From: a virus
IMG/VR virus record: IMGVR_UViG_3300025115_000544
Location: 1-25,985 of that record
Reading direction: 5' to 3' (one strand)
Length of the DNA: 25,985 nt
The translations under genes and the position numbers were made by a program. Position 1 is the stretch's first letter; each line of letters opens with the position of its first letter. The notes under the pieces are model-generated. The model saw only the letters and a program-made list of their open reading frames with translations. It was not told the DNA's origin and did not search any database. Below are positions 632-20,061 of the stretch, one piece after another.

Positions 632-641
632 GCGTTATCCT
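632..641 (+). promoter_or_regulatory. -10-like element before the fibre-like gene
   Basis: TATCCT at 636-641 lies exactly 6 bases before the ATG at 648. A start site 7 bases after the hexamer would fall on the A of ATG, giving a leaderless mRNA. No Shine-Dalgarno is present. A GTGACG at 613-618 lies about 17 bases upstream as a possible weak -35. The element repeats before several later genes. Confidence 0.55.
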
Positions 642-647
642 CGCGCG

Positions 648-2135
648 ATGAGCACGCACATCGTCCTCGCCGACTACGCCGACAGCACCCGTTCGTTCCG
701 AGCCGGCGAGGACGTCGATGCCTCCCAGGTCCCCCTCGCCGAGTTGGTGCGCGGAGGGCTCGCGGTCATCGCCACGTCGTCGACCGCACGCGTTGCTCGT
801 GATGCGTACCGGATCCAGGCGCTCTCGAACGCGAACGCATCGCTTGTAGCGATGATGGCCGCTGCCGGGGTGTTCGGCGGCGGAGGGAGCGGCGGAGGTC
901 TCGGCGTCGGCGAGTTCATCCACGCCGACTTCGGCACGCAGGATGAAGCGCAGGGGCGCTACGTCGGCACGCAGGGCTGGATCGACCTTATGGCGAAGCT
1001 CGCCACGATCCAGTTCGGCGCGGCTCCCGTCGTGCGCCTCGCGTACCAGGGCACGCCGTTCGTCGTGCCCGTCGCAGGTATGCCCGCGACTGGCTGGGAC
1101 TTCCGCGGAGGCTCCGTGGCGAGCTTCTTCGGCGCGACCGGGGCGGTCGTTCTCGACTGTCCGCCGGGTGTGAAGCTCGACAACCTCTTCTCGTTTGGCG
1201 GAGAGACGCTCGGGCAGGAGACCGTCGTCATCAAGATCGCCCCTCCTCCCGGCACGGGCGTGCTGGAGTTCACGGCGCTCCCTCCCGACGCTCCGTGGAT
1301 CCACGTCATCGGTGGCGGCTCGTTCGTGGACCACTCGACCGACACGGGCGCGTACATGCGGGGCGACGACACCGACCGCTCGTGCGTGATGGTGACGGCG
1401 GGGGCGATGCAGAACAGCGCGCTCTCGCCTCCGCTCTCGGGCCCGCTCGTCGAGCTTGGAGCGACCGACGACGCCGTGAGCGTGCAGTGGGGGAACGGCG
1501 GGCTCCCCACCGGCTGGCTCGCGGGCGGAGGACCGGGCTCGGACCTACTGAACTTCTACGACGACGGCGCGCACCCGGACACCGACAACCTCGCGGTGTG
1601 GTGTCCTCAGTTCACCGGCGGAGGAAACATAACGCCGCTCTCGTGGACTCTCGCGAAGTGGGCTGCGTACGACGACGCGGTGATCTCGCCTCCGCTCGGA
1701 GCGACGAACGCGCAGGGAGCGATCGATGTTCTGAAAGTCGCGCTCGCGGCGCGCGCTCCGAGCGAGCAGAATACCTACGCGCCGATCGTCACGCCGATCA
1801 CTCCTGCGCTCCTCGCGGCCGTGGCCGTGGGGACGTTCTCGTGGACGAGGATCGGCGACCTCGTGCGCGTGACCGGCATCCTGACCGTCACGCCTCCGCT
1901 CCTCTCTGGAGACAACCAGATCGACATCGACCTGCCGGTGGCCACCGCGTCGGCGGTCGGGCTCGTAGGCCAGTGCTCCGGCTCGACTCTCCCGAACGGG
2001 AACACGGATGTGATGACCGCGACCGGGCCGATCCGTGCGGCCGGCGGTCTCGCTCGCCTCTACTTCTCGCTCGCCTTCGCGAACGCACCGACGGCGTTCA
2101 CGATGTCGGTCGACTTCTCCTACGTCGTCTCGTGA
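648..2135 (+). CDS. Modular capsid-fibre or appendage-like structural protein
   Basis: A 495-residue protein with three parts. Residues 1-75 form a small N-terminal domain (RAGEDVDASQVPLAELVRGG) of the kind often used as a particle anchor. Residues 75-88 are a flexible Gly-rich linker. The rest is mainly beta-rich and ends in a module with a TRIGDLVRVTGILTV strand pair and a C-terminal FTMSVDFSYVVS strand. This tail is typical of C-terminal modules in phage fibre and adsorption proteins. Its position between scaffold and major capsid genes suggests a head fibre or decoration protein rather than a tail fibre; that is inference. The ATG at 648 follows the TATCCT element by 6 bases and has no Shine-Dalgarno. 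No enzymatic motif was recognised. Confidence 0.6.
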   Translation: MSTHIVLADYADSTRSFRAGEDVDASQVPLAELVRGGLAVIATSSTARVARDAYRIQALSNANASLVAMMAAAGVFGGGGSGGGLGVGEFIHADFGTQDEAQGRYVGTQGWIDLMAKLATIQFGAAPVVRLAYQGTPFVVPVAGMPATGWDFRGGSVASFFGATGAVVLDCPPGVKLDNLFSFGGETLGQETVVIKIAPPPGTGVLEFTALPPDAPWIHVIGGGSFVDHSTDTGAYMRGDDTDRSCVMVTAGAMQNSALSPPLSGPLVELGATDDAVSVQWGNGGLPTGWLAGGGPGSDLLNFYDDGAHPDTDNLAVWCPQFTGGGNITPLSWTLAKWAAYDDAVISPPLGATNAQGAIDVLKVALAARAPSEQNTYAPIVTPITPALLAAVAVGTFSWTRIGDLVRVTGILTVTPPLLSGDNQIDIDLPVATASAVGLVGQCSGSTLPNGNTDVMTATGPIRAAGGLARLYFSLAFANAPTAFTMSVDFSYVVS

Positions 2136-2144
2136 GGTGATCCG

Positions 2145-2318
2145 ATGTCTGCTCCAACGAAATGCCCGAAGTGCTCCGCGGCGCTGGTCGCGGCGAAGGG
2201 TCCGTGGACCTCGACCTACGCGCCCCTGGTGTGCCGGTCGTGCAAGAAGGTCGTCCCGAGGGTTGCGCGTTCGGCCTCTCCGCCCGTCGGCTCCTCGACG
2301 CCGAGCGACGCTCGCTGA
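2145..2318 (+). CDS. Small zinc-ribbon protein (57 aa)
   Basis: A 57-residue ORF starting at ATG 2145, 9 bases after the fibre-like gene's stop, behind a clear GAGGTGA Shine-Dalgarno (2134-2140). It contains CPKC at residues 7-10 and CRSC at residues 30-33, a CxxC-19-CxxC spacing expected for a zinc ribbon, between basic residues (CRSCKKVVPR), with a Ser/Pro-rich tail. Zinc binding is inferred from the four cysteines. The role is unknown: it may contact nucleic acid or stabilise a structural protein. It is the only obvious paired-CxxC protein in the window and sits directly upstream of the putative capsid promoter. Confidence 0.75.
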   Translation: MSAPTKCPKCSAALVAAKGPWTSTYAPLVCRSCKKVVPRVARSASPPVGSSTPSDAR

Positions 2319-2327
2319 CTTCGACCG

Positions 2328-2356
2328 TTGCGCGAAGGCCTGACCGTCGGTAGGAT
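2328..2356 (+). promoter_or_regulatory. Putative promoter of the major capsid gene
   Basis: TTGCGC (2328-2333), a 17-base spacer, then TAGGAT (2351-2356). TTGCGC matches only 3 of 6 bases of the sigma70 -35, but the spacing is ideal and TAGGAT is the same hexamer found before the tape-measure gene. Transcription would begin near 2363 and give a leader of about 120 bases before the capsid ATG. Confidence 0.5.
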
Positions 2357-2375
2357 CGTCGGAATCAGTTCCCAT

Positions 2376-2395
2376 CCAGGCCGAGGGCGGCCTGG
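2376..2395 (+). other. Leader hairpin upstream of the major capsid gene
   Basis: Perfect 8-bp stem CCAGGCCG/CGGCCTGG with an AGGG tetraloop, in the untranslated leader between the putative promoter and the capsid start. There is no T-run after it, so a terminator is unlikely. A 5' stem-loop protecting an abundant mRNA or affecting translation is possible. Confidence 0.6.
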
Positions 2396-2485
2396 CCCCC
2401 TCCACGCGCACGACGGCGGTCAACGGTCGGTCCAGGGGTGCCCGTCGGGACGACAGATCCCTTCCCCGATTCGGAGGCACACACC

Positions 2486-3874
2486 ATGGCCGTTTCTCTC
2501 GCTGCTCTCGGCATCCCCGCGGAGATCACCGCGATCATCCAGGACCGCACGCTGGAGCGCGTCTTCCACGACTCGCTCTTCCCGAGGCTCCTCTTCCGCT
2601 CGGAGGCGATCCCCGAGTTCTGGGCGAGCAACCTCGGCGAGCGGATGATCTTCACCCGGACGGGCCGCATCCCCGTGCGGACGACGCCCCTCACGCCGGG
2701 CTCCGACCCGACGCCGAGCAGCTACGCGATCGAGCAGTGGGAGGCGGAGGCCCGCCAGCACGGCGACACGATCGACACGCACATGCCGTCGTCGTACGTC
2801 GCGCTCGCTCCCCTCTTCCAGCGGAACACGGTCCAGCTGGGCCTCAACGCGGGCGAGACCCTGAACCGCCTCGTGCGGAACGCGCTCTACCTCTCCTACC
2901 TCGGCGGCAACACCGTCACGGCGGCAGCGGCTCTCGCGGGCGCGCTCCAGCTGACGGTCGCGAGCCTGAACGGGTTCCGCGAGCGTCTCCTCAACGGCCG
3001 CCCCTCTCCGGTCTCCTCGACGAACGCGCTCCCGATCACGATCGGTGTCGGCGGCGAGCCGGCGAACACGGTGGTCGACGCGACTCCCCTCACCGCGGAT
3101 CCGGCCGGGCCGGGCATCATCACGCTCGGCGCTCCGACCGTGAACCCCATCCCGGTGCGCTCGGCGATCCTCGCGAGCACGCGATCGCTCATCACGCGCG
3201 TCGGCGGCGGCGCGACGGTCGACGCCCTCACGGGCGCGAGCGTCCTGACGCTCCAGACCATCATCGACACCGTGGCGCGGATGCGCGCGCAGCTGATCCC
3301 CCCGACGCCGGACGGCTTCTACCACATCCACGTCACGCCCGAGGGCGAGGCCCAGCTGTTCGCGGACAACGCGTTCCAGCGCCTCCACCAGTCGCTCCCC
3401 GACTCGGCGGCCTACCGCGACCTCGCGATCGGCCAGCTGGTCGGCTGCCGGTTCTACCGGAACACGGAGAACCCGAACCAGGACAACTCCGGCGCGCTCG
3501 TCGACACCTCGGGTGGCGGCGGCTCCGCTCGCGAGGCGAGCGAGATCGGCGCAGAGGTCATCAACCAGGCCGGCGTGCCGATCAAGCGCGCGCTGGTCAT
3601 CGGCGGCGGCGCGATCTACGAGAAGTACCTGGACGAGGGGAAGTTCCTTTCGGAGGCGGGCGCGACCGGCAAGATCGGCGAGTTCAACATCACGAACAAC
3701 GGCGTCGCCGTGATGACCGAGCGGATCCGCTTCATCGTCCGCGCTCCGCTCGACCGCGCGCAGCAGGTCGTCTCGCAGACGTGGACCTGGAGCGGCGACT
3801 TCCCGGTGCCCTCGGACGGGCTCTCGGGCGGCGCGGCGCGCTACAAGCGTGCGGCGGTCATCGAGCACGGCTGA
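2486..3874 (+). CDS. Major capsid protein (HK97-fold)
   Basis: The ATG at 2486 is chosen because GGAGG (2473-2477) lies 8 bases upstream; an in-frame GTG at 2438 would add 16 residues without such a signal. The 462-residue product begins MAVSLAALGIPAEITAIIQDRTLERVFHDSLFPRLLFRSEAIPEFWASN. It carries the block DTHMPSSYVALAPLFQRNTVQLGLNAGETLNRLVRNALY, then a probable inserted beta domain (about residues 185-220), and a C-terminal half with DGFYHIHVTPEGEAQLFADNAF, IGQLVGCRFYRNTENP and RALVIGGGAIYEKYL. These resemble phage major capsid proteins of the HK97 fold in the broad N4 gp56-like group. It forms the icosahedral shell with the scaffold encoded upstream. A strong Shine-Dalgarno, its own putative promoter and a terminator after the stop suggest high, independent expression. 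The fold is well supported; the exact family is less sure. Confidence 0.88.
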   Translation: MAVSLAALGIPAEITAIIQDRTLERVFHDSLFPRLLFRSEAIPEFWASNLGERMIFTRTGRIPVRTTPLTPGSDPTPSSYAIEQWEAEARQHGDTIDTHMPSSYVALAPLFQRNTVQLGLNAGETLNRLVRNALYLSYLGGNTVTAAAALAGALQLTVASLNGFRERLLNGRPSPVSSTNALPITIGVGGEPANTVVDATPLTADPAGPGIITLGAPTVNPIPVRSAILASTRSLITRVGGGATVDALTGASVLTLQTIIDTVARMRAQLIPPTPDGFYHIHVTPEGEAQLFADNAFQRLHQSLPDSAAYRDLAIGQLVGCRFYRNTENPNQDNSGALVDTSGGGGSAREASEIGAEVINQAGVPIKRALVIGGGAIYEKYLDEGKFLSEAGATGKIGEFNITNNGVAVMTERIRFIVRAPLDRAQQVVSQTWTWSGDFPVPSDGLSGGAARYKRAAVIEHG

Positions 3875-3881
3875 CGAGTTC

Positions 3882-3902
3882 GCCGACCGCGATCGGGTCG
3901 GC
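3882..3902 (+). other. Hairpin after the major capsid gene
   Basis: Perfect 7-bp stem GCCGACC/GGTCGGC with a 7-base loop, starting 8 bases after the capsid stop. No T-run follows. It sits upstream of the stronger terminator hairpin at 3956 and may protect the 3' end of the capsid mRNA. Confidence 0.5.
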
Positions 3903-3955
3903 AGCCGAGAGAGGCCGCGAGAGGTCCCCGCGACCGACAGATGGTCTCCAGCGAT

Positions 3956-3988
3956 GGGCTCGTGCTTCGGCACGGGCCCTTCGTCTTT
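3956..3988 (+). terminator. Rho-independent terminator after the major capsid gene
   Basis: A 10-bp stem GGGCTCGTGC/GCACGGGCCC (one G-U pair) closed by a TTCG tetraloop, followed by the T-rich tail TTCGTCTTT. A C(UUCG)G loop is unusually stable and common in intrinsic terminators. It ends 16 bases before the next putative -10 element, forming a terminator-promoter junction. Confidence 0.8.
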
Positions 3989-4001
3989 CCGTCCGCTCTC
4001 G

Positions 4002-4010
4002 TGCTACCGT
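4002..4010 (+). promoter_or_regulatory. Extended -10-like element before the Ala/Pro-rich protein gene
   Basis: TGCTACCGT (TG-N-TANNNT) with the hexamer at 4005-4010, 8 bases before the ATG at 4019. No Shine-Dalgarno is present. It lies just after the terminator at 3956-3988, where a new promoter would be needed. Confidence 0.55.
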
Positions 4011-4018
4011 CCGGACCT

Positions 4019-4816
4019 ATGGCGAAGGCAAGCACCAAGACGGCACCCGCTCCCGCTCCCGCTCCCGAGCAGCCGACGTCGGCTCCCGAGGCATCGGCTC
4101 CGCCCGAGACCGCTCCGCCGGTCGCGACTGCGCCCGAGGCTCCGCTGGTCGCCGAGGCGGCTCCGCCGAGCGTCGACGATGCGCCTCCGGCCTCTCCGGC
4201 GTTCGAGCCTCCCGTGCTCGACGAGGCGAGCCTGCCTCCGGTGCTCGAATCGAACGAGCCGATGTCGCAGTTCGATCTCATGGTCTCGGAGATCGAGCGC
4301 GCGTTCTCCGTCTTCGAGACCTCGGAGCAGTTCGTGATGGAGGTCCGGAGCGCGGCGGAGTCCGTGTGCGGCAAGCCTCCGCCTCCGAGTCTCAGCGACT
4401 CGGACGCGGCGAAGGTCATCGACACGCTCGTGACGACGATCCGCAAGACGGCGGACAGGCTCGGCTCTCCGCGCATGATCCGACTGGAGATCGAGGAGCA
4501 CGCGCGTCGGATGACGGCGCTCGCTCGTCGGCTCGACGGGCCGAAGCCGAAGCCGGTGGAGTACTTCGAGGTCACGGCGACGTCGCGCTTCATCGTCGCC
4601 GGCTCGATCACCTCGCTCGCGGCCGGCTCGATCATCTCCTCGCTCACGCACTCGATCTCCGACGTCGAGGCGCAGGGCGTTCCGCTCCGCCGATGCGGCG
4701 CTCCGGTCGCTCATCCCTCTGCGGCGGCGAGCGGGTTCCAGGTGAGCCCCTCGCACGACTTCGAGATCCAGGAGCACTCCGATCCGCTCCTCCGCGCGCT
4801 CGGAGTCGTGTCGTGA
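4019..4816 (+). CDS. Ala/Pro-rich head-region protein of unknown function
   Basis: A 265-residue protein. The ATG at 4019 is preferred over an upstream in-frame ATG at 3941, because 3941 lies before the terminator hairpin and the -10-like element directly precedes 4019. Residues 1-80 are a low-complexity linker of Ala, Pro and Glu. Residues 85-180 are predicted helical (QFDLMVSEIERAFSVF, AAKVIDTLVTTIRKTADRLG, EIEEHARRMTALARRL). The C-terminal part starts at YFEVTATSRFIVAGSITSLAAGSII, a strand pattern seen in small accessory domains of phage structural proteins. A head or connector accessory role is inferred from position only. Translation is probably leaderless or nearly so. Its stop overlaps the next gene's GTG (GTGA). 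Confidence 0.65.
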   Translation: MAKASTKTAPAPAPAPEQPTSAPEASAPPETAPPVATAPEAPLVAEAAPPSVDDAPPASPAFEPPVLDEASLPPVLESNEPMSQFDLMVSEIERAFSVFETSEQFVMEVRSAAESVCGKPPPPSLSDSDAAKVIDTLVTTIRKTADRLGSPRMIRLEIEEHARRMTALARRLDGPKPKPVEYFEVTATSRFIVAGSITSLAAGSIISSLTHSISDVEAQGVPLRRCGAPVAHPSAAASGFQVSPSHDFEIQEHSDPLLRALGVVS

Positions 4817-4998
4817 AGGGCTCCGACTTCAAGAAGTTCGGCGCGAAGAAGGCTCCCCCGCGCAAGCTCGCCGGGATGACCGCGGCACCGTCGAACGGCT
4901 CGCTCCCCGCGCTCCCCACCGACGGCGTGAGCGACGAGAAGAAGGCTCCGGTGCTCAAGGCCGGAGCGTCGAAGAGGCTCGCCGGCCTTCGTCGCTGA
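4813..4998 (+). CDS. Small basic protein with R/K-LAG motifs (61 aa)
   Basis: The GTG at 4813 overlaps the previous stop (GTGA) and has CGGAG (4801-4805) 7 bases upstream, so start and coupling are both supported. The 61-residue product (KGSDFKKFGAKKAPPRKLAGM...) is rich in Lys, Ala and Pro, and probably largely disordered. KLAGM occurs near residue 18 and RLAGL at the C-terminus (SKRLAGLRR). The next small protein repeats this motif. Function is unknown. A basic capsid-associated or connector peptide would fit the neighbourhood, but nothing shows it directly. Confidence 0.6.
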   Translation: MKGSDFKKFGAKKAPPRKLAGMTAAPSNGSLPALPTDGVSDEKKAPVLKAGASKRLAGLRR

Positions 4999-5004
4999 GG
5001 CAGC

Positions 5005-5199
5005 GTGCGGGAGTACTTCCGGGATGATCTCGGCCGCTTCGCTTCTCCGCCAGGAGGAGATGGAGGCGGTGACATACCCCCGGAGACACCGACACCTCCG
5101 CGAGAGTCTGAGGGTCGTTCGACGCTTGGGCGTCTGGCAGGGATGCCGGCGTTCGGCGGTCGGGTGGCTCTCGACCGTCTCGCGGGCGGCGGTCGTTGA
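5005..5199 (+). CDS. Small protein with GRF and LAG motifs (64 aa)
   Basis: The GTG at 5005 lies 6 bases after the previous stop, with TGAGG (4996-5000) four bases upstream as a short-spaced Shine-Dalgarno. The 64-residue product begins MREYFRDDLGRFASPPGG; short proteins with an RD-x-x-GRFA start are common in phage head regions. It is Gly/Pro-rich and contains GRLAGMPAF and DRLAGGGR near the end, echoing the KLAGM and RLAGL of the gene before. An overlapping ORF at 5024-5425 in another frame conflicts with the next gene and was discarded. Function is unknown. Confidence 0.55.
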   Translation: MREYFRDDLGRFASPPGGDGGGDIPPETPTPPRESEGRSTLGRLAGMPAFGGRVALDRLAGGGR

Positions 5200-5202
5200 G
5201 GC

Positions 5203-5208
5203 TATCCT
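5203..5208 (+). promoter_or_regulatory. -10-like element before the connector gene at 5215
   Basis: TATCCT at 5203-5208, exactly 6 bases (CCGGCG) before the ATG at 5215 and 4 bases after the preceding stop. The nearest purine-rich GAGG is 13 or more bases away, too far for a normal Shine-Dalgarno. Confidence 0.55.
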
Positions 5209-5214
5209 CCGGCG

Positions 5215-5619: not shown

Positions 5620-5625
5620 GCGCGC

Positions 5626-5631
5626 TATCCT
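5626..5631 (+). promoter_or_regulatory. -10-like element before the gene at 5638
   Basis: TATCCT at 5626-5631, exactly 6 bases (CGGGGG) before the ATG at 5638. It starts 7 bases after the upstream stop. No properly spaced Shine-Dalgarno is present. Confidence 0.55.
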
Positions 5632-5637
5632 CGGGGG

Positions 5638-6201: not shown

Positions 6202-6204
6202 TCC

Positions 6205-6687
6205 GTGGCGCGCTATCGCGTGACGATCCCTGAGTTCACGCGGTTCCTCGCGAGGATGACGCCCGAGATCCGAGACGCGTGCATCACGGGCCTCCGGAGC
6301 GGCGCGCTCCGGCTCCAGGTCGCGACCATCAACGAAATCGACGCGGCCAAGCCCTACCCCGCGGTCGACACGGGCGAGCTTCGCAACTCGGTGAACGTGA
6401 CGTCGATCTCCGACGGTGCGATCGTCCACGTCGATGCTCCTCACGCGGCGTTCCTGGAGTACGGCACCCGCCCGCACACGCCTCCGCTCGCTCCGCTCCT
6501 GGAGTGGGCGAACCGGAAGGGTCTCGACGCGGGCGCGGCGCGCGCGATCCAGCGGAAGATCGCCCGAGAGGGGACGGCACCCCGGCACTACTTCGAGAAA
6601 GCCGTGGAGCGCGCAAAGCCGTTGATCCGCGAGGAGATCCTCCAGGAGTTGAGCCGGATCGGCTTCGGACGCGTTCGAGGCCGGTGA
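6205..6687 (+). CDS. HK97 gp10-like tail-completion (neck) protein
   Basis: A 160-residue protein with the signature of the HK97 gp10 family. It has an N-terminal helix pair, VDTGELRNSVNV near residue 54, AAFLEYGTRPHTPPLAPLLEWA around residues 81-103, a basic helix, and GTAPRHYFEKAVERAKP near the C-terminus. These proteins complete the head-tail joint. The GTG at 6205 follows the previous stop by 3 bases with GAGGAG about 6 bases upstream, so translation is coupled and uses a normal Shine-Dalgarno. Length is typical for the family. Its stop lies inside a 21-base cassette that is repeated at 16894. Confidence 0.85.
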   Translation: MARYRVTIPEFTRFLARMTPEIRDACITGLRSGALRLQVATINEIDAAKPYPAVDTGELRNSVNVTSISDGAIVHVDAPHAAFLEYGTRPHTPPLAPLLEWANRKGLDAGAARAIQRKIAREGTAPRHYFEKAVERAKPLIREEILQELSRIGFGRVRGR

Positions 6688-6692
6688 GCCCG

Positions 6693-6701
6693 TGCTAGCC
6701 T
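6693..6701 (+). promoter_or_regulatory. Extended -10-like element before the tail-terminator gene
   Basis: TGCTAGCCT (TG-N-TANNNT), hexamer 6696-6701, exactly 6 bases before the ATG at 6708, with no Shine-Dalgarno. The 21 bases at 6684-6704, which include the previous stop, match 16894-16914 at 20 positions. Confidence 0.6.
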
Positions 6702-6707
6702 CGGGCG

Positions 6708-7406: not shown

Positions 7407-7411
7407 CGCCG

Positions 7412-7420
7412 TGCTACCCT
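7412..7420 (+). promoter_or_regulatory. Extended -10 promoter element before the sheath gene
   Basis: TGCTACCCT with hexamer 7415-7420, 40 bases before the sheath ATG. A TCGACA at 7390-7395 lies 19 bases upstream and matches the -35 consensus at 5 of 6 bases, though the spacing is long. The mRNA would have a leader of about 34 bases containing AAGGAG, unlike the leaderless genes. Confidence 0.55.
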
Positions 7421-7460
7421 CGCTCCCGAGGCGCGAAGGCGCGCGCAAGGAGCGATCACC

Positions 7461-9680
7461 ATGGCCGGATTCGTGCGACGGTTCACCAGCTTCCCTTCGA
7501 TCGAGGTGCTCGCCGAGATCGAGGCGGTCAACATCGTGGACCTCCCGCCCCCTGCGCCAACGACCGGCGTAGGAAGCGGGACGGCGCTCGTCCTCGGCGA
7601 GTTCGAAGACGGGGCCTTCGCGGTCGGAGGCGACGCGGCGGAGTACGACCCCGCGACCCGAGGCGTGTTCGAGGTGTTCTCCTCCGAGGATCTCCGCCAG
7701 CGGAGCGGCGGCTTCGGCTTCACCTACGGGACGACGCCCTACCAGAACCCGGCGGCTCGCCGGCATCTCTCCGAGTTCTGGAACGGCTCGGGCTTCATCA
7801 AGCTCAAGTTCATGCGTCCGCGACGCCTCATCCTCGCGCGCGTCGACACGTCGGTGGGCTCGGTCGCGTTCTCCCCGATCGCGTTCCACGAGAGCGACGT
7901 CGGGCCCTTCACGCTCGCGGTCGGAGACCAGCTGTCGGTGACCACCGATGTCGGTGGACCGGCGCTCTCGACCGCGATCGCGGCGGCGCGCGCCTCCATC
8001 ACGGGCGGCGTGTTCGTCAACTCGGGCTACGTCGGCGGAGAGCAGATCACGGTCCAGATCGACAACGGCGTGGTGGTCCCCGTGACCTTCGCGGCGGCGG
8101 ACCAGACGCCCGCCCAGGTCGCAGCGCGGATCAACCTCGCGCTCGGCTACGCGGCGGCGGACGTTCCGGGCGGCCTCCGCATCCGAGGTCTCATCGAGGG
8201 CACCGCGGGTGAGGTCACGCTCGCGGACGTCTCCGCGGGCGCGCTCGCGGCGATCGGCCACGCGGCGGGCACGACGGCGGGCACCGGCAACGTCGCCGAC
8301 CGGACCGCGGTGACGGCCACGGAGATGGCGACGATCATCAACGCCACGGTCGCGCTCTCGGCGATCAACTGCTCCGCGCGCGCGCAGGCCGATGGCTCGC
8401 TCCGCGTGTTCTCGACGACGCCCGGAGCCGGCCAGATCACGATCAACGCCTCCGCGGTGGCCACGGCGCTCGGGCTCCCGGTCGCGGTCCTCGCCGAAGC
8501 CGACGTCCACGCGGCCGGGACGATCCCCGCCGGCACACGCGTCCGGACCGTCGGCGGAGCCGAGTGGGTGACGATGCAGACGCTCATCGTCGCCGAGGGG
8601 ACGAGCGCGAGCGGGAACCCCGGCCCGCACACCGTCAAGGTCCGGCCGGCGCTCGACGACGGGACCGGAGCGGCGGCGGCGGCCTCGACCGTCACGGTCG
8701 TCGTCGACCAGCCGCTGTGGGGCGAGGTCACGGTGACGAACCCGATCGCCCTCTCGGCGGCGCTCACCGAGAACCAGCTGGACGTGGCCTATGAGGCGGC
8801 GTTCGACGCGACCCTGAACCTCGCGAGTCCGGCGCGCGAAGCCAACTTCTCGATCTCCGCTCGTCGCTCGACCGCGGTGATCCGGAAGGGTCGCGAGAAC
8901 GCGATCGACGCGAGCGCGGGAGGTCACTTCGGCCGGAAGTTCCTCACCGGAGCGCCGATCGGCTTCACGCAGTCCCAGGCCCAGGCCGACGTCGCTCTCT
9001 GGCGCTCGGACCGGGTGTTCTACACCTGGCCCGGCTGGAGCGTTCGCATCCCCGAGATCGCCTTCCTGGGTCTCGCGGGCGGCCTCGGCTTCACGGCCGA
9101 TGGCGTGATCACGGTCCGCGGCGACGGTCCTCTGGCAACGCTCGACTGCCAGCTTCCGCCGGAGGAGAACCCCGGCCAGCAGACCGGGCTGATCGAGCAG
9201 TTCTTCGCGGTCGAGGCGACCTCCTCCCCGCTCGACATCGGCGCGTACACGCGCCTCAAGGCCGCGGGCATCTCCGCTCCTCGGCGCGACCCGATCTCGG
9301 GCTCGATCTACCAGTCGGGCATCACGAGCAATGTCACGCCGGGCCTCACGACGCAGGCCCGCCGGAAGATGGCCGACTTCATCCAGGACACGCTTGCCCA
9401 GCGGCTCGTGCCCTACTCCAAGAAGCTCTCCACGCAGTCGCGGCGAGAGGGCGTCCGGGCGGACATCGACCAGTTCCTGAACGACCTCCTCTCACCGAAC
9501 AACCCCGAGACCCAGCGGATCAACGACTACGCCGTGGACCCGATCTCGGGGAACACCCCGTCGATGGAGGCGCGCGGCATCGTCGTCTTCATCACGCGCG
9601 TCCGGACCCTTTCGAGCCTCGACGCGATCGTGGTGCAGACCGAGATCGGCGAGGGCGTCGTCATCGTCACGGCGACCTGA
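7461..9680 (+). CDS. Contractile tail sheath protein, enlarged by inserted domains
   Basis: A 739-residue sheath subunit. AAGGAG (7447-7452) lies 8 bases before the ATG. The C-terminal region (about 450-739) has sheath hallmarks: WRSDRVFYTWPGWSVRIPEIAF, AYTRLKAAGISAPRRDP, then YSKKLSTQSRREGVRADIDQFLNDLL and the closing strands GIVVFITRVRTLSSLDAIVVQTEIGEGVVIVT. The N-terminal region (1-150) carries the outer sheath part. Residues about 185-340 hold two tandem copies of a small beta module (copy 1 VTFAAADQTPAQVAARINLAL then GGLRIRGLIEGTAGEVTL; copy 2 EMATIINATVALSAINCSARAQADGSLRVFSTTPGAGQITI). Residues about 352-420 (IPAGTRVRT...WVTMQTL) resemble the beta domain of the J-like baseplate proteins encoded later. 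The inserts make it larger than many phage sheaths. The sheath contracts around the tube on infection. Confidence 0.9.
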   Translation: MAGFVRRFTSFPSIEVLAEIEAVNIVDLPPPAPTTGVGSGTALVLGEFEDGAFAVGGDAAEYDPATRGVFEVFSSEDLRQRSGGFGFTYGTTPYQNPAARRHLSEFWNGSGFIKLKFMRPRRLILARVDTSVGSVAFSPIAFHESDVGPFTLAVGDQLSVTTDVGGPALSTAIAAARASITGGVFVNSGYVGGEQITVQIDNGVVVPVTFAAADQTPAQVAARINLALGYAAADVPGGLRIRGLIEGTAGEVTLADVSAGALAAIGHAAGTTAGTGNVADRTAVTATEMATIINATVALSAINCSARAQADGSLRVFSTTPGAGQITINASAVATALGLPVAVLAEADVHAAGTIPAGTRVRTVGGAEWVTMQTLIVAEGTSASGNPGPHTVKVRPALDDGTGAAAAASTVTVVVDQPLWGEVTVTNPIALSAALTENQLDVAYEAAFDATLNLASPAREANFSISARRSTAVIRKGRENAIDASAGGHFGRKFLTGAPIGFTQSQAQADVALWRSDRVFYTWPGWSVRIPEIAFLGLAGGLGFTADGVITVRGDGPLATLDCQLPPEENPGQQTGLIEQFFAVEATSSPLDIGAYTRLKAAGISAPRRDPISGSIYQSGITSNVTPGLTTQARRKMADFIQDTLAQRLVPYSKKLSTQSRREGVRADIDQFLNDLLSPNNPETQRINDYAVDPISGNTPSMEARGIVVFITRVRTLSSLDAIVVQTEIGEGVVIVTAT

Positions 9681-9727: not shown

Positions 9728-10162
9728 ATGGCGCAGCGAGTCAAAGGCCAGGAGACGCGGATCACGTTCACCGGCCCGAACGGGACCATCACGGCGCTCG
9801 ACGCGATCCAGTCGTTCGAGTTCGAGATCCAGACCGAGATTCTCTCCGAGGGCTACCTGGGAGAGACCTCGGAGCGGAAGGACGACGTGTTCAAGGGCGT
9901 CCGCGGCCGGATGGAGGTCCACATCTCCTCGCAGGACTACTTCCGGTTTGCCGACCAGGTGAAGCTCCGCTCGCAGCGCCGAGAGGCGACCAACGCGCAG
10001 TTCACGGCGACCTGCGCGTTCTCCCTCCCGAACGGCCAGCGACCGCGCGCCGTCCTCACGGACCTCTTCTTCGGTCCCCTCCCGGTCAACGCTGGAGCGC
10101 GCGACGAGTTCGTGCAGGGGACGGTCGAGTTCGAGTGCGAGGACGTTCGGTTCTTTTATTGA
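9728..10162 (+). CDS. Tail tube protein
   Basis: A 144-residue protein immediately after the sheath gene. It shows SFEFEIQTEILSEGYLGETSERKDDVFKGVRGRMEVHI, then FRFADQVKLRSQRRE and a strand-rich end VQGTVEFECEDVRFFY, the pattern of contractile-tail tube proteins, whose stacked hexamers form the inner DNA conduit. Size is normal. AAGGAG (9716-9721) lies 6 bases before the ATG. No -10-like element is seen in the 47-base gap, so it is probably co-transcribed with the sheath gene. Two hairpins follow the gene. Confidence 0.88.
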   Translation: MAQRVKGQETRITFTGPNGTITALDAIQSFEFEIQTEILSEGYLGETSERKDDVFKGVRGRMEVHISSQDYFRFADQVKLRSQRREATNAQFTATCAFSLPNGQRPRAVLTDLFFGPLPVNAGARDEFVQGTVEFECEDVRFFY

Positions 10163-11030: not shown

Positions 11031-11037
11031 GTAGGAT
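11031..11037 (+). promoter_or_regulatory. -10-like element before the tape-measure gene
   Basis: TAGGAT at 11032-11037 (context CGTGTAGGATCGG), 7 bases before the GTG start at 11045 and shortly after the chaperone stop. No Shine-Dalgarno is present. The hexamer is the same as in the putative capsid promoter. Confidence 0.5.
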
Positions 11038-11044
11038 CGGACGC

Positions 11045-12958
11045 GTGACGGACTTCGACATCGAGGCGGTCCTATCGCTGGAGACCCGAGCGGCGCTCGG
11101 TGGCATCCGGTCGCTCGGTGGCCAACTCTCGGCGCTCGGAGACCGGATCAGCGGCGCGAACGGGATGTTCGGCGGGATGGTCCAGAACGTCCTCGCGCTC
11201 GGAGCGGGCTACGTCGGCGTGAACGCGCTCGCGTCCGGCTTCTCCGGGCTCGTCCGCTCCGCGGCCGAGTTCGAGACGTCGATGCAGACGACCGAGATCG
11301 GCCTGTCGTCGATCATGGCCTCGGTCGAGGGGCTCTCGTTCGAGCAAGCCCGACAGGTGGCCGGGTCGGTGTTCCGCGACCTCACCGACGAGGCGCTACG
11401 GAGCACCGCCACGACGGAGGAGTTGTTCTCGATCTACTCGGCGATCTACGGGCCGATCCGCAACGCCGGGTTCGCCCTGGACGAGGTGCTCGGGATCACC
11501 AGCCAGACGGCGCTGGCGGCCTCGGCGCTCGGGGTGGACTTCCAGCAGGCCTCCCGAGACATCTCGGCCATGGTGCGCGGTGCCGCTGGCGTCGACGTGC
11601 GGCTCTTCTCCTCGCTGCGCTCCATGGGCGCGATCACCGAGGACGCGCAGGAGTTCAACCGCCTCACGCAGGCCGAGCGCATCCAGCGCCTCCAGCGCGC
11701 GCTCCAGGGGTTCGACGCGGCGGGCGAGGCTTACGCGACCTCGCTCCCTGGCGTCACCTCGTCCTTCCAGGACGTGGCCGAGCAGCTGCGGCGGGCGGCC
11801 TTCCGCCCGGTGTTCGACGTGCTCGCGCGCTCGCTGGGGGGCGTCAACGATCGGCTGCTGGCGAACCGCCAGGGCATCGAGAACGTCCTGAGCAACCTCG
11901 GCGAGCGAGCGGCCGGCGCGCTCTCCAACGTCTTCGATCGGGCCTTCGCCGGGATCGACTACATCACGGCCCATTGGGGGGAGTTCCAGGCCCAGATCGA
12001 GCGCGTCGTGGCGACGGTCTACCGGATGGCCCCCTACCTGATGGCGGCGGCGCGCTCGTTCGCGATGATCCAGATCGGGCGGCAGGTCGTCGGCTCGGGC
12101 ATCTCCGCGCTCGGCGCGGGCGCGAGCTTCGTGGGAAGCCTCGGCGGCCTCATCGGCGGAGGAGCAGCGGCGGCCGAGGGCGGAGCGGCGGCGGCCGGAG
12201 GCGCAGCGGCGGCGGCGGGCGCGGGCGGCGCGGGCGGCCTCGCGGCTCTCGGACCGATCCTCGAAGGGCTCTCGCTCGCGGCGGCTCCGCTCGCGCTCGC
12301 GCTCGGCGCGGTGACGTCGCTCGTCTCGTTCGCCACCGAGTATTGGGATGGGATCCTGGCCGTGTTCGAGCCGCTCACGCCGATGCTCGAAGGCGTCTAC
12401 TCGGAGTTCGAACGGATCGGACTGTTCGGCGGCCAGACCCTCTCGCCCATGCTCGATGGCCTCGGCTTCATCCTCGCGGCGATCCTCATCCCGACGCTCC
12501 AGCTGCTCCTCGTCGTCATCCGAGGAGCGGCGGCTGCGTTCGCCGACTTCCTGGAGATCACGGCCTACGTCGCCGAGGCCGTGCAGGGCTATCTCGACGA
12601 AGCCGTGGAGTCGTTCCTGGAGGCGGCGCGGTACATCTCCGTGATGATCGGAGACCTGTTCGGAGACGCCACCAACTCGGCGGCGCGCGACCGCGAGGCG
12701 CAGGAGGCGGCGCATCGCGCGGTGAGCGACCTCCGCGACCAGACCACGCGCGACGCGGAGGCTCCCGAGCCTTCGCTGACCGCTCCTCCGACGGGCCGAT
12801 CGACGACGCACAACGACTTCCGCGGCTCTCGGATCTCGGTCCGGCAGGAGTTCCGAGAGGCCGACCCGGATCGGGTCGCGGTCGATATGATCAACGACAT
12901 CGCGCGGCTCGCCGAGCAGCGCACGCAGTCGGGGTTCGTCCCCGCTCTCACGAGGTGA
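11045..12958 (+). CDS. Tail tape measure protein
   Basis: A 637-residue protein starting MTDFDIEAVLSLETRAALGGIRSLGGQLSALGDRI. It contains helical blocks typical of tape measures (FETSMQTTEIGLSSIMASVEGLSFEQARQVAGSVFRDL, LDEVLGITSQTALAASALGVDFQQASRDISAMVRG), a low-complexity Ala/Gly segment at about residues 368-402, and two hydrophobic stretches: LAALGPILEGLSLAAAPLALALGAVTSLVSF at about 400-430 and LGFILAAILIPTLQLLLVVI at about 470-490. The latter may insert into the host membrane during DNA ejection. At roughly 0.15 nm per residue, a known relation, the tail would be near 95 nm long. The GTG start has no Shine-Dalgarno and lies 7 bases after TAGGAT. The next gene begins 3 bases after the stop. 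Confidence 0.85.
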   Translation: MTDFDIEAVLSLETRAALGGIRSLGGQLSALGDRISGANGMFGGMVQNVLALGAGYVGVNALASGFSGLVRSAAEFETSMQTTEIGLSSIMASVEGLSFEQARQVAGSVFRDLTDEALRSTATTEELFSIYSAIYGPIRNAGFALDEVLGITSQTALAASALGVDFQQASRDISAMVRGAAGVDVRLFSSLRSMGAITEDAQEFNRLTQAERIQRLQRALQGFDAAGEAYATSLPGVTSSFQDVAEQLRRAAFRPVFDVLARSLGGVNDRLLANRQGIENVLSNLGERAAGALSNVFDRAFAGIDYITAHWGEFQAQIERVVATVYRMAPYLMAAARSFAMIQIGRQVVGSGISALGAGASFVGSLGGLIGGGAAAAEGGAAAAGGAAAAAGAGGAGGLAALGPILEGLSLAAAPLALALGAVTSLVSFATEYWDGILAVFEPLTPMLEGVYSEFERIGLFGGQTLSPMLDGLGFILAAILIPTLQLLLVVIRGAAAAFADFLEITAYVAEAVQGYLDEAVESFLEAARYISVMIGDLFGDATNSAARDREAQEAAHRAVSDLRDQTTRDAEAPEPSLTAPPTGRSTTHNDFRGSRISVRQEFREADPDRVAVDMINDIARLAEQRTQSGFVPALTR

Positions 12959-12961
12959 GCG

Positions 12962-14020: not shown

Positions 14021-14024
14021 CCTC

Positions 14025-16103: not shown

Positions 16104-16897
16104 CGAGGAGATCGGGACGCGCTCGGATCCGTCGCTCGCTCGACCTCGGGCGGCTCCGCGAGGCGATGGCCGCTCCCGGCTCCGACCCTCGCTCGTGGGT
16201 CGTGCTCGCGCGCGTGGACGACGACGACGACGCGGTGCGATGGGAGGAGGGCTACGGCTGGATCGCCGACGTGACGTTCACGTTCGGCGATATGTCCGGA
16301 GAGGGACCGATCGCGTGCCGCGTGTCCTCGGCGTTCGGAGGAGACGGCAAGGCTTCGATCTCACCGATCGAGCGAGGCTCCGAGGTTGCGGTGCTCCTCC
16401 CCGGCGGCGACCCGATGACCGCTCCGCTCATCGTCGGCGTGGCGTTCAACTCCCAGGACGTTCGCGTTCCGGAGGAGGTCAACGGTCAGACGATCGACGA
16501 GGACTTCGCGAAGGCCAACCACATCCTCGTCACGCCGCACTCGGTCCAGCAGGAGGTCGGAGAGCGATGGCGCACGAGCGCGACCGACCGCGCGACCCTG
16601 GAGGCTCCCGAGGTCCGGCTGGCGAACGAGGACGCCGATCAGTCCTACGTGCGCGGCGAGGACTACGCCGACGCGGCCGACGCGCTCGCCGACGCCACGG
16701 ACGACTTCGGGCAGCAGGTGCTCGCGGCGTTCGGCAACCTCGTGCCTCCCGGCCCGCCCGTCACGCCCGTGACCCAGGCCCAGGCGACCTCCGCGGTGAC
16801 GACGATCACGACGGCCTACGCCGCGCTCGCGGTCGCGGTCGGGCAGTTCAAGGCGGCCCGCAACTCCTACCTGAGCGCGAAGATCAAGGGCGAGTGA
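16100..16897 (+). CDS. Baseplate spike protein (gpV/gp45-like OB fold)
   Basis: A 265-residue protein from the GTG at 16100, which overlaps the hub stop (GTGA) and follows GGAGG by 7 bases. Residues about 35-125 (WEEGYGWIADVTFTFGDMSGEGPIACRVSSAFGG and GSEVAVLLPGGDPMTAPLIVGVAFN) match the OB-fold region of phage spike proteins, where the P-x-x-G-x-E-V-(A/V)-V-x-x-P-x-G-D loop is typical. The C-terminus is helical (QAQATSAVTTITTAYAALAVAVGQFKAARNSYLSAKIKGE) and lacks an obvious repeat-rich beta-helical tip with metal-binding residues. It would sit at the bottom of the tube and puncture the cell envelope. Order after the hub gene supports this. Confidence 0.78.
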   Translation: MTRRSGRARIRRSLDLGRLREAMAAPGSDPRSWVVLARVDDDDDAVRWEEGYGWIADVTFTFGDMSGEGPIACRVSSAFGGDGKASISPIERGSEVAVLLPGGDPMTAPLIVGVAFNSQDVRVPEEVNGQTIDEDFAKANHILVTPHSVQQEVGERWRTSATDRATLEAPEVRLANEDADQSYVRGEDYADAADALADATDDFGQQVLAAFGNLVPPGPPVTPVTQAQATSAVTTITTAYAALAVAVGQFKAARNSYLSAKIKGE

Positions 16898-16902
16898 GCC
16901 CG

Positions 16903-16911
16903 TGCTAGGCT
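16903..16911 (+). promoter_or_regulatory. Extended -10-like element before the tailspike gene
   Basis: TGCTAGGCT with hexamer 16906-16911, 7 bases before the ATG at 16919, with no Shine-Dalgarno. The 21 bases from 16894, beginning at the previous stop, match those at 6684 at 20 positions. Confidence 0.6.
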
Positions 16912-16918
16912 CGGTCCC

Positions 16919-18934
16919 ATGCCCGCGAGCATGAGGATCGACCAGGCCGGCCTGCCCGTAGGGACGCCGGGACAAGCCCGCACCGACGGTCTCGACACCG
17001 GCGCGCTCGTGACGCTCACGTCCGTTGGAGGAGGGACGACGCATCGGTTCCGGCTCCTCTGGGTTCCTCCCGAGGACACCACGGCGGTGTCGACCCTCAC
17101 GCAGACCGGGCCGGCGACATGGACGTTCTCGCCGACTCCGGGAGCGAGGGGTACCTACCGGATCGAGCTTGTGGTGGACGAGGGGACGCCATCGGAGAGC
17201 AGGCAGCGGAGGATCTTCGGCATCCGGCTCCCGCTCAGCGGTCTGCTGGTCCCGGCGGCGAACGAGGGCGCTGACGCTAGGGCCACCCTGCTCAACGCGG
17301 GCCCGGCGACGATCGACCGGAGCGAGAACAACGAGCCCTTCGGTCCGTTCGCCTCGGGCTCGTCGTGGGGCTGGTGGAAGTCCTGGCGGGACCTCTACCT
17401 CTACGTCGAGAGCCTCGTGGTCGGAGGAGGCATCACGCAGCTACTCGGCGACGTCCTCGCCGGGCCTGGCGTCGGTCCCGTCGCGGCGATCGTCGCTCGG
17501 ATCCAGGGGAACCCCGTCTCGCCGGTCGCTCCGCTCGTCGGCCAGGCGCTCGTGTGGAACGGCGCGGCGTGGCTCCCGACCACGCTCCCCAGCGGTGCGC
17601 CCGTCGGGCCAGCGCAGTGCGTCTTCGTCGACCCGGTGGCCGGCAACGACGGCACGGGACAACGCGGGCGCGCGGACCTCCCGTTCTTGACGATCGCGGC
17701 TGCGATCGGAGCGGTCATCGCCCTCGACGACTGCATCGTGCTTGCTCCGGGGGAGCACAGCGTCTCCGCGACGCTCCCCGAGCCGCTCGTGGGGCGCATC
17801 TCGTTCGTGGGCTACGGGCGCGATGTCACCACCGTTTCGATGGATTCGGGCGGCGGGTTCCTCCCGCTCCTCTCCTGCGGCGTGACGCTCGTCGAGCGCC
17901 TCGCCATGCGCAACTTCACGATCCGGCTCGCTACGGGCGACATCGGGATCGTCGCCGATGGCTCGCTGGGGAACGGCGACTTCATGCGCGAAGGCCTGGA
18001 GCTATCGGGGGTGCGCTTCGAACGGAGCCCCGGCGCCGCTCCGGTCCAGGGGTGGGTCTTCACGGCGGTGAACCGGCTCGTGATCGAGAACGTCCAGGTC
18101 GACGGCGGAGTCTCTTTCAACACCTGTCACTCCGCTCCCTCGCTGAGCCAGGATCCGAGCCTCCTCCAGAACCTCTCGGTCCTCACGAACACCTACATCG
18201 CGTGGGACGACGACGTGGCTCAGGCGTTCGGCTTCCCTATGGGCCGAGAGCCGATGCGGTTCCGGGAGTGCTCACTCGGAGAGGTCCTGCTGGATCTCCA
18301 GCCGGACGTGCAGCCCGAGCGATGCTCCTACCGCGGGCTCACCTCGCTCAACCCGCTCGGAAACTCCAGTACGGGCGTCGCGTCGATCTGGTCGGAGAGC
18401 GACTGCATCGTAGGCTCCGGCGGCGGCCTCACGTTCATCGATTTCACGGCGTCGCAGTTCATCCTCGACGTGCCGGTCTCGCCGACGTTCCTATTCACGA
18501 GACCGCACTGGAACGGGCTCGTCGTCTGCGCGTTTGAGCGGCTCGCAAGCGTGAACGGCAGGACGACTCCGCGGATCTCGGATCTCTCGGGGCCCGGCTC
18601 CTTCTCGCTGTTCATCTGCAACGAGGGGATCGACGGCAACATCTTCTCGGCGAACATCATGCCGACGATCTCGATCGGAGGCAGCGGCACCTTCACGCCG
18701 GGCGTCTGGAGGCCGATCATCGCCTTCGGACCGACCGTCGCGGGCCCCAACTTCTTCCCCTTCCCGTGGGGCCCCGCGGGCAGCGGCAACAACTGGATCG
18801 TCGTCCAGCCCGACAACTTCGTGCCGGGCGAGGTGCTCACGGCCGGTCCTGGAGGCGCGCTCGGGTTTAACGTGGACGCGGCGATCGGAGGCGGGTTCTT
18901 CTACGCCGAGATCGGCTGGGTCAACGGTAGCTGA
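16919..18934 (+). CDS. Beta-helix tailspike / receptor-binding protein
   Basis: A 671-residue protein. Residues about 20-105 look like an Ig/PKD-type beta sandwich (ALVTLTSVGGGTTHRFRLLWVPPEDTTAVS...TWTFSPTPGARGTYRIELVVDEG), followed by a helical aromatic linker SSWGWWKSWRDLYLYVESL. From about residue 232, FVDPVAGNDGTGQRGRADLPFLTIAAAIGAVIALDDCIVLAPGEHSVSATL is the classic opening of a right-handed pectate-lyase-like beta helix. Repeated strand-turn units (GRISFVGYGRDVTTV, LAMRNFTIRLATGDIGIV, RLVIENVQVDGG) follow. This architecture is typical of phage spikes that bind or cut surface polysaccharide; no catalytic residues can be named. The start is leaderless-type. It lies between spike and wedge genes, inside the baseplate block. 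Confidence 0.78.
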   Translation: MPASMRIDQAGLPVGTPGQARTDGLDTGALVTLTSVGGGTTHRFRLLWVPPEDTTAVSTLTQTGPATWTFSPTPGARGTYRIELVVDEGTPSESRQRRIFGIRLPLSGLLVPAANEGADARATLLNAGPATIDRSENNEPFGPFASGSSWGWWKSWRDLYLYVESLVVGGGITQLLGDVLAGPGVGPVAAIVARIQGNPVSPVAPLVGQALVWNGAAWLPTTLPSGAPVGPAQCVFVDPVAGNDGTGQRGRADLPFLTIAAAIGAVIALDDCIVLAPGEHSVSATLPEPLVGRISFVGYGRDVTTVSMDSGGGFLPLLSCGVTLVERLAMRNFTIRLATGDIGIVADGSLGNGDFMREGLELSGVRFERSPGAAPVQGWVFTAVNRLVIENVQVDGGVSFNTCHSAPSLSQDPSLLQNLSVLTNTYIAWDDDVAQAFGFPMGREPMRFRECSLGEVLLDLQPDVQPERCSYRGLTSLNPLGNSSTGVASIWSESDCIVGSGGGLTFIDFTASQFILDVPVSPTFLFTRPHWNGLVVCAFERLASVNGRTTPRISDLSGPGSFSLFICNEGIDGNIFSANIMPTISIGGSGTFTPGVWRPIIAFGPTVAGPNFFPFPWGPAGSGNNWIVVQPDNFVPGEVLTAGPGGALGFNVDAAIGGGFFYAEIGWVNGS

Positions 18935-18944
18935 GGAGGACGGG

Positions 18945-19214
18945 ATGCCCACGGAGGAGGAGATCGCGGCCGAGGTCGCACGCAAGGCGGCGAAGGTCGC
19001 CGAGGTCACGGCGGCGCGCGCGGCGGCGGCGGCGAAGGTCGAGGAGCAACAAGCGGCGGTCGCTTCGGCGAAGGCTGCGTCGGCGGTCTCGCGCGAGGCA
19101 CAGCGGAAGGCGATCGGCGACGTCCACGGCCACGCGAAGGCCGCGATGGTTCGGCTCCGGGCCTCGCATCGCGAGCGCGAGGAGCGCGATGCGCGTGAGG
19201 GCGAGGAGGAGTGA
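18945..19214 (+). CDS. Small helical coiled-coil-like protein (89 aa)
   Basis: An 89-residue protein consisting almost wholly of Ala, Glu, Lys and Arg (MPTEEEIAAEVARKAAKVAEVTAARAAAAAKVEEQQAAVASAKAAS...), so one long helix or coiled coil is expected. GAGGAGG lies about 5 bases before the ATG, one of the strongest Shine-Dalgarno sites in the window. It sits between the tailspike and the wedge gene, and its stop overlaps the next GTG. A tailspike chaperone or adaptor is conceivable from the location, but nothing in the sequence shows it. No family was recognised. Confidence 0.65.
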   Translation: MPTEEEIAAEVARKAAKVAEVTAARAAAAAKVEEQQAAVASAKAASAVSREAQRKAIGDVHGHAKAAMVRLRASHREREERDAREGEEE

Positions 19215-20041
19215 CGCAGGAATGCACGGGCGCGCTCGGTTCGGGCGGAGCGGGATCAACCCCGCTCGGCTCGGCGTCCTATCTTGCGGTGGCCGAGGCG
19301 CGAGAGGTCTCACGAAACTCGGTGCGCGTGACGTTCTCGACGGCTCCCGTCGCCTCCGATCCGGCGACTGCATGGGACGCGCTCAACCCGGAAAACTGGA
19401 GGCTCGAACCGCTCTCCCCGCACGGGATCGTGGTCCGGCTGGCCCAGGTCGTCCGGCGCGTCGCCGAGACCGCGGTGGACGTGTTCTTCGACGGTCCCCT
19501 GGATGCTCCGGCGACCTACCGGATCGTCGTCGAGAACGTCCGTGAGGTCGGCGGCGGCGAGATTTCGCTGGACGAGGAGTGTCGTGCGGCGGCGTTCGCG
19601 ACCTTCCCGTTGTTCCGGGTGCCTCCGGCGCGCGCGCGCGCGGCTCGGGTCGACCTCGCGAACCCGCAGCTGCTCAACGACGAGAAGGTCACGAACCCGC
19701 TCGGGACGTTCCAGATCAACGACCGCGGCGACTTCGCGCTGGAGAGCGGCCGCGCCTATCTCCGGAAGCGCATCCTCCGCCGAGCCACGAGCGCGCTCGG
19801 GTCGTTCTTCCATCTCCCGGCGTACGGCTTCGAGCAGCCGCTGAAAGGGCTGATCAAGCCCTCGGTGATCCGCTCGCTCCAGTCGGCGGTCCTCGCCCAG
19901 GTGCTCCGCGAGCCCGACGTGGCGAAGGCGGCCGTGGAGGTCTTTCTCGCGCGGTCGGACATCCTCGTGATCTCGATCAAAGTCGTCGACACCAACGGCG
20001 AGGCGGACCAGATGACGGTTCCGGTGCCTCTGTCCTCGTGA
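19211..20041 (+). CDS. Baseplate wedge protein (gp25/gpW-like C-terminus) with an N-terminal beta domain
   Basis: A 276-residue protein from the GTG at 19211 (GTGA overlap with the previous gene). Residues about 25-125 resemble a fibronectin/Ig-like beta sandwich (RNSVRVTFSTAPVASDPATAWDALNPENWRLEPL...ETAVDVFFDGPLDAPATYRIVVENVREVGG). Residues about 157-276 resemble the gp25/gpW wedge family: GDFALESGRAYLRKRILRRATSALGSFFHLPAYG, IKPSVIRSLQSAVLAQVLREPDV and ILVISIKVVDTNGEADQMTVPVPL. Such proteins attach the first sheath ring to the baseplate. Wedge proteins of this family are commonly 110-150 residues, so the N-terminal domain is an addition. Order before the J-like genes supports the call. Confidence 0.7.
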   Translation: MTQECTGALGSGGAGSTPLGSASYLAVAEAREVSRNSVRVTFSTAPVASDPATAWDALNPENWRLEPLSPHGIVVRLAQVVRRVAETAVDVFFDGPLDAPATYRIVVENVREVGGGEISLDEECRAAAFATFPLFRVPPARARAARVDLANPQLLNDEKVTNPLGTFQINDRGDFALESGRAYLRKRILRRATSALGSFFHLPAYGFEQPLKGLIKPSVIRSLQSAVLAQVLREPDVAKAAVEVFLARSDILVISIKVVDTNGEADQMTVPVPLSS

Positions 20042-20046
20042 CGGCG

Positions 20047-20052
20047 TAGACT
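20047..20052 (+). promoter_or_regulatory. -10-like element before the first J-like gene
   Basis: TAGACT at 20047-20052, 9 bases before the GTG at 20062 and shortly after the preceding stop, followed by CGGG as at the other sites. No Shine-Dalgarno is evident. The longer distance makes it the weakest of the leaderless-type cases. Confidence 0.45.
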
Positions 20053-20061
20053 CGGGACACC

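Follow-up and report, generated by a model that had tools for sequence, protein, structure and literature searches.

The subject of this analysis is a set of TANNNT hexamers that lie directly before gene starts in a phage genome. They occur in a 25,985-nt stretch of viral DNA (the window; positions 1 to 25,985 of IMG/VR record IMGVR_UViG_3300025115_000544), where an earlier note had read them as -10-like elements of many leaderless late transcripts. The same phage is represented in full by record IMGVR_UViG_3300017788_000029 (57,574 bp), which is 99.96% identical across the window and carries a 123-bp repeat at both ends; the complete genome thus measures 57,451 bp, and the window record covers part of it. 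We set this genome in the orientation of the window, which thus occupies genome coordinates 1-25985. The 77 called genes all share one strand, and their starts were called with a home-made codon model that is blind to the TANNNT motif.

Hexamers before gene starts

All eight hexamers listed in the earlier note are present in the window (Table 1). The spacings, i.e., the numbers of nucleotides between hexamer and start codon, are 6, 8, 6, 6, 6, 7, 7 and 9, with exactly 6 in the four cases already pointed out (648, 5215, 5638 and 6708). None of the eight starts has a convincing Shine-Dalgarno sequence, again as claimed. The remark that TG-N often precedes the hexamer does not hold for the window, where this is so in three of eight cases (4019, 6708 and 16919), but it does for the family of related sites described below (n=90), with T at -15 in 49% and G at -14 in 68%. 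The remark on a following CGG holds in part, as CGG directly adjoins five of the eight hexamers. Up to three further sites are found in the rest of the genome.

Table 1. Features of the window and of the complete genome (genome coordinates; scores are those of the promoter profile built from relatives)
Feature	Position	Strand	Remarks
-10 hexamer TATCCT	636..641	+	6 nt before ATG 648 (unknown-function protein, 495 aa); score 9.1
-10 hexamer TACCGT, TGC before	4005..4010	+	8 nt before ATG 4019; score 10.6
-10 hexamer TATCCT	5203..5208	+	6 nt before ATG 5215; score 6.4
-10 hexamer TATCCT	5626..5631	+	6 nt before ATG 5638; score 10.4
Extended -10 TGC-TAGCCT	6696..6701	+	6 nt before ATG 6708; score 17.0, second best of genome
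-10 hexamer TAGGAT	11032..11037	+	7 nt before GTG 11045 (tape measure protein)
Extended -10 TGC-TAGGCT	16906..16911	+	7 nt before ATG 16919; score 17.1, best of genome
-10 hexamer TAGACT	20047..20052	+	9 nt before GTG 20062 (baseplate wedge protein); score 13.4
Hexamers beyond window	45245; 55191	+	before portal gene 45257; before 55203
Weaker hexamer beyond window	44550	+	before 44563
Leadered promoter TGC-TACCCT	7415..7420	+	40 nt before sheath start 7461, Shine-Dalgarno AAGGAG between; score 12.6
Candidate leadered late promoter TAGGAT, weak	2351..2356	+	81 nt before major head protein start 2438; score 8.2
Early promoter and leader	25564..25643	+	TTCGTTGTTGCC, 5' hairpin GCCGGG-ATCG-CCCGGC, GGAGAAGGAGAAGG, ATG 25644
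Early copies	28657-28729, 38193-38265, 49397-49470		loci L040 and L039, minus strand
Early copies	50547-50619, 51745-51820, 53081-53152		loci L040 and L039, minus strand
Major head protein	2438-3874	+	PHROGs match
Neck protein	6205-6687	+	PHROGs match
Tail sheath	7461-9680	+	assigned from size, position and genome order
Tail tube	9728-10162	+	assigned from size, position and genome order
Tape measure protein	11045-12958	+	PHROGs match
Baseplate wedge proteins, two	20062-21186, 21194-22468	+	PHROGs matches
Terminase, portal, resolvase	42993, 45257, 32171		rest of genome
Exonuclease, Sak4-like annealing protein, replication initiator	26838, 29161, 30956		rest of genome

The plus strand of the 57,451-bp genome has 36 TANNNT hexamers in total. 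At a spacing of 6-7, they precede nine of 76 genes versus 0.1 expected (P = 1e-15); measured against the intergenic density of TANNNT, which itself includes these sites, the value is P = 2e-8. We then collected some thirty related viral contigs through their head and sheath proteins (down to ~35% protein identity), of which 23 non-redundant ones (four from metagenome-assembled genomes, MAGs), with 991 gene starts, were used for spacing statistics. The hexamer occurs 53 times at spacing 6 and 37 times at spacing 7, versus ~3 times at neighboring spacings, and the mirror, complement and reverse-complement patterns form no comparable peak at the same starts. Among all gapped hexamers of two T and one A at spacing 6-7, TANNNT has 90 occurrences, the runner-up 29, and the median 6. 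The family spacing is 6-7; an earlier pattern with spacing 8 had zero sites in the relatives, and a search for shared motifs by k-mer counts without weighting mainly brought up GC-rich repeats of coding sequence. Several hexamers contain the stop codon TAG, as would be expected if TA codons or the stop codons of upstream genes happened to fall before starts. However, the stop codons of the upstream genes are others, mostly TGA, and lie a few bases ahead of the hexamer, and the probability within the genome, the sharp spacing peak in relatives and the promoter signals at unselected positions (below) all argue against coincidence, which we regard as having a negligible chance of being correct.

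Predicted promoter architecture and the two forms of the promoter

The 90 family sites were aligned on the hexamer and read out at positions unused in the selection; the result describes the family as a whole rather than single sites. Upstream there is a weak preference for T, T, G and C at -35 to -32 (TTGC), separated from the -10 element by a spacer of 17 bp. An extended -10 element is formed by G, T and G at -16 to -14, in the form GTGnTAGnCT, with further preferences for G at -10, C at -8, C at -6 and C at -1. Judged from the letters, the pattern at unselected positions is that of a sigma70-type promoter with extended -10, and the family sites have the components that define this type (a -35, a spacer of 17 +/- 1 bp, a TANNNT -10 and an optional TGn). 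In such a promoter, a spacing of 6 places the expected +1 at the A of the ATG. The motif is followed by 76 ATG, 14 GTG and 0 TTG starts, versus 506/328/67 elsewhere (ATG 84% versus 56%), and only three of the 90 motif genes overlap the upstream gene, versus 371 of 901 others.

A promoter profile built from relatives only was scanned over both strands of the genome, and the genome is therefore out of sample. The four best sites are those of starts 16919, 6708, 20062 and 55203, and 4019, 5638, 45257, 11045 and 648 rank among the best 13 of the plus strand; 5215 and 44563 score lower. The fifth-best site is TGCTACCCT at 7415, ahead of the sheath gene, and the sixth-best, at 56561, precedes gene 56599 by 32 nt. 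Sheath orthologues in four relatives (G014, G015, G010 and L021) have a similar site 28-40 nt upstream. Because profile sites also precede the sheath gene and 56599, a single predicted type of late promoter is found with and without a leader, at leaderless late genes as well as at some that have a leader.

These leadered sites bear on the possibility that the hexamer is an mRNA signal for translation, i.e., a non-Shine-Dalgarno ribosome site within one long late transcript. The fixed distance to the start codon would suit a ribosome site, but the same element is also found 28-40 nt upstream of sheath genes, where a separate Shine-Dalgarno is present, the hexamer is accompanied by a weak -35, a 17-bp spacer and an extended -10, and its consensus is that of sigma70 -10 elements. 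We consider a translation signal very unlikely.

Orthologous starts are of two kinds, with either TANNNT or a Shine-Dalgarno. For gene 16919, TANNNT at 6-9 nt is kept in all but one lineage with a start found, and most tape measure orthologues have it 5-9 nt before the start. Baseplate gene 20062 has TANNNT in the present phage and in G010, G011 and G014 (spacing 7-8 in these relatives), and a Shine-Dalgarno instead in G002, G008, L014, G012 and G013. Only a minority of the orthologues of gene 5215 have TANNNT, most having a Shine-Dalgarno, which sheath and tube genes across the relatives have nearly always. For starts with an upstream gap of at least 12 nt, a Shine-Dalgarno-like tetramer occurs in six of 74 motif genes versus 217 of 371 motif-less genes; the scarcity of Shine-Dalgarno sequences at motif starts is in part mechanical.

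Late bias, early leaders and the proposed expression plan

We grouped the terminase, portal, head, tail and lysis genes as a late set and the replication and recombination part as an early set, the timing being presumed from gene function. In the complete genome, TANNNT stands 5-9 nt before the start of 10 of 34 late versus none of 42 early genes (P = 1.4e-4); in nine relatives, it does so for 41 of 329 starts in or adjoining structural genes versus 10 of 324 others (P = 7e-6). A different module, a repeated promoter and a leader with a hairpin plus GGAGAAGGAG, precedes early genes. In each of the seven copies, TTCTTGTTGCC (or a close variant) is followed after ~17 nt by CAAGGAT (or a close variant), then by a hairpin of 6-7 bp, GGAGAAGGAGAAGG and ATG, and the hairpin covaries between copies (GTCGGC/GCCGGC, GTGAGC/GCTCAC, GCCGGG/CCCGGC). 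All seven plus-strand TTGTTGC sequences of the whole genome are inside early modules. Thus the signal of presumed leaderless starts is confined to genes of presumed middle or late timing, with another promoter type at early genes, as in the Thermus phage phiYS40.

Repeated leaders are also seen in relatives. In G009 (IMGVR_UViG_3300035451_000008; L069/L070), a hairpin GGGGC-loop-GCCCC is directly followed by AACGAAAGG and a start codon in up to seven copies, which is the same plan as the early leader of the present phage, and G011 and G013 have repeated GCAGGAAGG and GAAAGGGAA leaders. In the window, the early leader at 25564 is separated from the end of the late module (25094) by a long stretch (25095-25563) that lacks a confident gene and has a G-run near 25520; it is likely a terminator and regulatory region. 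The sheath and tube genes, at 7461-9680 and 9728-10162, have no PHROGs match.

The motif, its fixed spacing, the -35, extended -10 and -1 preferences, the conservation in relatives and the late-module bias are directly visible. We conclude that the hexamers are very probably -10 elements of sigma70-type late promoters giving leaderless or near-leaderless mRNAs. The computational support for this reading, which was that of the earlier note, comes from the 6-7 nt spacing in 23 contigs, the independent -35, extended -10 and -1 signals, the prediction from relatives, the restriction to the late module, and the presence of the same signature in a candidate host class but not in Alphaproteobacteria (below). 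One correction concerns its breadth: many late transcripts are predicted to be leaderless, but not all late genes are, as the same promoter lies 40 nt ahead of the sheath gene with a Shine-Dalgarno in between. Several points count against the reading. The -35 signal is weak, the start calls depend on our codon model, and the related contigs are mutually non-independent. Sites 4019 (spacing 8) and 20062 (spacing 9) fall outside the spacing peak, the frame of ATG 4019 has an alternative start at 3941, and 44563 scores low. The opposition to Shine-Dalgarno sequences is partly mechanical, since a Shine-Dalgarno accompanies 16% of same-letter control hexamers placed at this spacing, versus 7% for TANNNT and more for the others.

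In the mechanism that we propose, -10 hexamers 6-7 nt (at most 9) before the start codons of virion assembly genes would be recognized by host sigma70 RNA polymerase, which would start the mRNA at or within ~3 nt of the AUG or GUG, and these start codons would be translated leaderless, a Shine-Dalgarno being unneeded. About eleven such promoters would split the late module into short transcription units, and the genes between them, with a Shine-Dalgarno or an overlap with a neighbor, would be read as distal cistrons. Farther upstream of the sheath gene, of 56599 and perhaps of the major head protein gene and 42445, the same promoter would yield a leader with a Shine-Dalgarno. Early genes would use the other module, in which a hairpin close to the predicted 5' end stands between the TTCTTGTTGCC element and GGAGAAGGAGAAGG.

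The promoters might also be real but read by a phage sigma factor or a phage-altered host RNA polymerase, in a late switch as in T4 or the Thermus phage P23-45. The early and late promoter types do differ, and in P23-45 the protein gp39 blocks -10/-35 promoters and spares the extended -10 middle and late ones (PMC7403470). On the other hand, the late consensus resembles plain bacterial leaderless promoters, and comparison with PHROGs and Pfam brought up neither a sigma factor nor an RNA polymerase gene, many small early proteins being outside this comparison or having no match. We think such a switch unlikely, and recognition by the host enzyme in its usual form is preferred here. A more speculative idea, which we hold to be rather improbable, is that the stages are separated by their mode of translation initiation (a 5' hairpin and strong Shine-Dalgarno for early units, leaderless starts for most late units): phage products would shift host RNA polymerase off -35 dependence, and perhaps the ribosome toward a 5'-terminal AUG, in mid-infection, and orthologues would switch mode through the position of the promoter alone.

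Should the transcripts prove to begin at these start codons, leaderless expression of late genes would extend beyond one thermophilic Thermus phage, as a conserved strategy of an unrelated group of GC-rich contractile-tail phages. The orthologues with a start-adjacent -10 or a Shine-Dalgarno, and the one promoter type with and without a leader, form a large natural series on which the costs and benefits of leaderless translation could be tested directly. In genome annotation, the motif would provide a usable start-site signal in such phages.

Candidate hosts and comparison with known systems

A tblastn search with the baseplate and sheath proteins gave zero matches in 50,697 phage records, as did a head-protein scan of GTDB genomes. 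The sheath alignment finds relatives in four MAGs of different phyla, and in at least some of these the phage contigs are probably misbinned. One further genome with a long match is found in the class of the delta-proteobacterial MAG, and none in the class of the Methylocystis MAG. In the delta-proteobacterial MAG, TGNTANNNT-N6-ATG occurs 30 times versus 5 for the reversed control; the three other MAGs (16/15, 12/8 and 10/12) have no clear excess. The bacterial comparison of TGNTAGNCTCG-N4-ATG covers two classes: in 59 genomes from the class of the delta-proteobacterial MAG it occurs 61 times, the reversed control 7 times, and in 58 genomes from that of the Methylocystis MAG (Alphaproteobacteria) 7 and 6 times. 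Hence there are bacteria with exactly such a leaderless promoter, which makes a host among the delta-Proteobacteria plausible; it is only a guess, because at least some of the MAG contigs are probably misbinned and class-wide matches are few, and membership of a phage contig in a bin is weak evidence. In many genomes of the class of G018 (318 genomes; e.g. L077-L082), proteins of ~740 aa match the sheath alignment weakly and partially (E 1e-11 to 1e-17), and are perhaps other contractile-tail sheath proteins. The Myxococcus phage Mx8 (68% GC) has zero TANNNT at 6-7 nt before its 84 genes, so that the trait is not shared by all phages that infect such bacteria.

The layout is known from some bacteria. 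Leaderless genes of Actinobacteria, Deinococcus-Thermus, delta-Proteobacteria and other groups are recognizable by TANNNT ~12 bp upstream of the start, counted from its first T, with a 15.8% average in delta-Proteobacteria where such TA-led genes are found (Zheng et al. 2011, PMC3160421), and in Deinococcus, TANNNT adjoining open reading frames is an experimentally proven -10 element of leaderless genes (PMC12340547). The earlier note was right to name the first two groups, but its list was incomplete, as delta-Proteobacteria and phage phiYS40 also belong in it. The present case shares with the TA-led genes the position of TANNNT without a Shine-Dalgarno, the form TAnnnT with little mid-hexamer information in GC-rich genomes, and a -35 that helps at 17 bp; it differs in that they are bacterial and this is a phage with a late-gene bias.

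P23-45 likewise has late genes on extended -10 promoters and early genes on another type. Its middle and late promoters are those favored by gp39 (PMC7403470), while RNA polymerases of the phage itself transcribe the early genes (PMC10770324). It differs in having these polymerases and the sigma-remodelling gp39, homologues of neither being identified in the present phage.

The clear precedent is phiYS40. In its record DQ997624 (first 40 kb), used as a positive control, TANNNT is commonest at spacing 6 before annotated starts, in forms such as TGCTACCAT-GAGTAGC-ATG. Its middle and late promoters, in work of Sevostyanova and colleagues from 2007, reportedly have only a -10-like element and its early ones -10/-35, and the phage is said to rely on host RNA polymerase. 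Most of its middle and late mRNAs are leaderless, and IF2 and IF3 are altered (PMC3594737). The case of phiYS40 is established by experiment, and the present phage is known from sequence alone. The latter belongs to a different lineage with 70% GC DNA, and it has a weak -35 as well as a leadered form of the promoter at the sheath gene. As far as sequence can tell, the present phages follow the phiYS40 plan in a new lineage unrelated to it.

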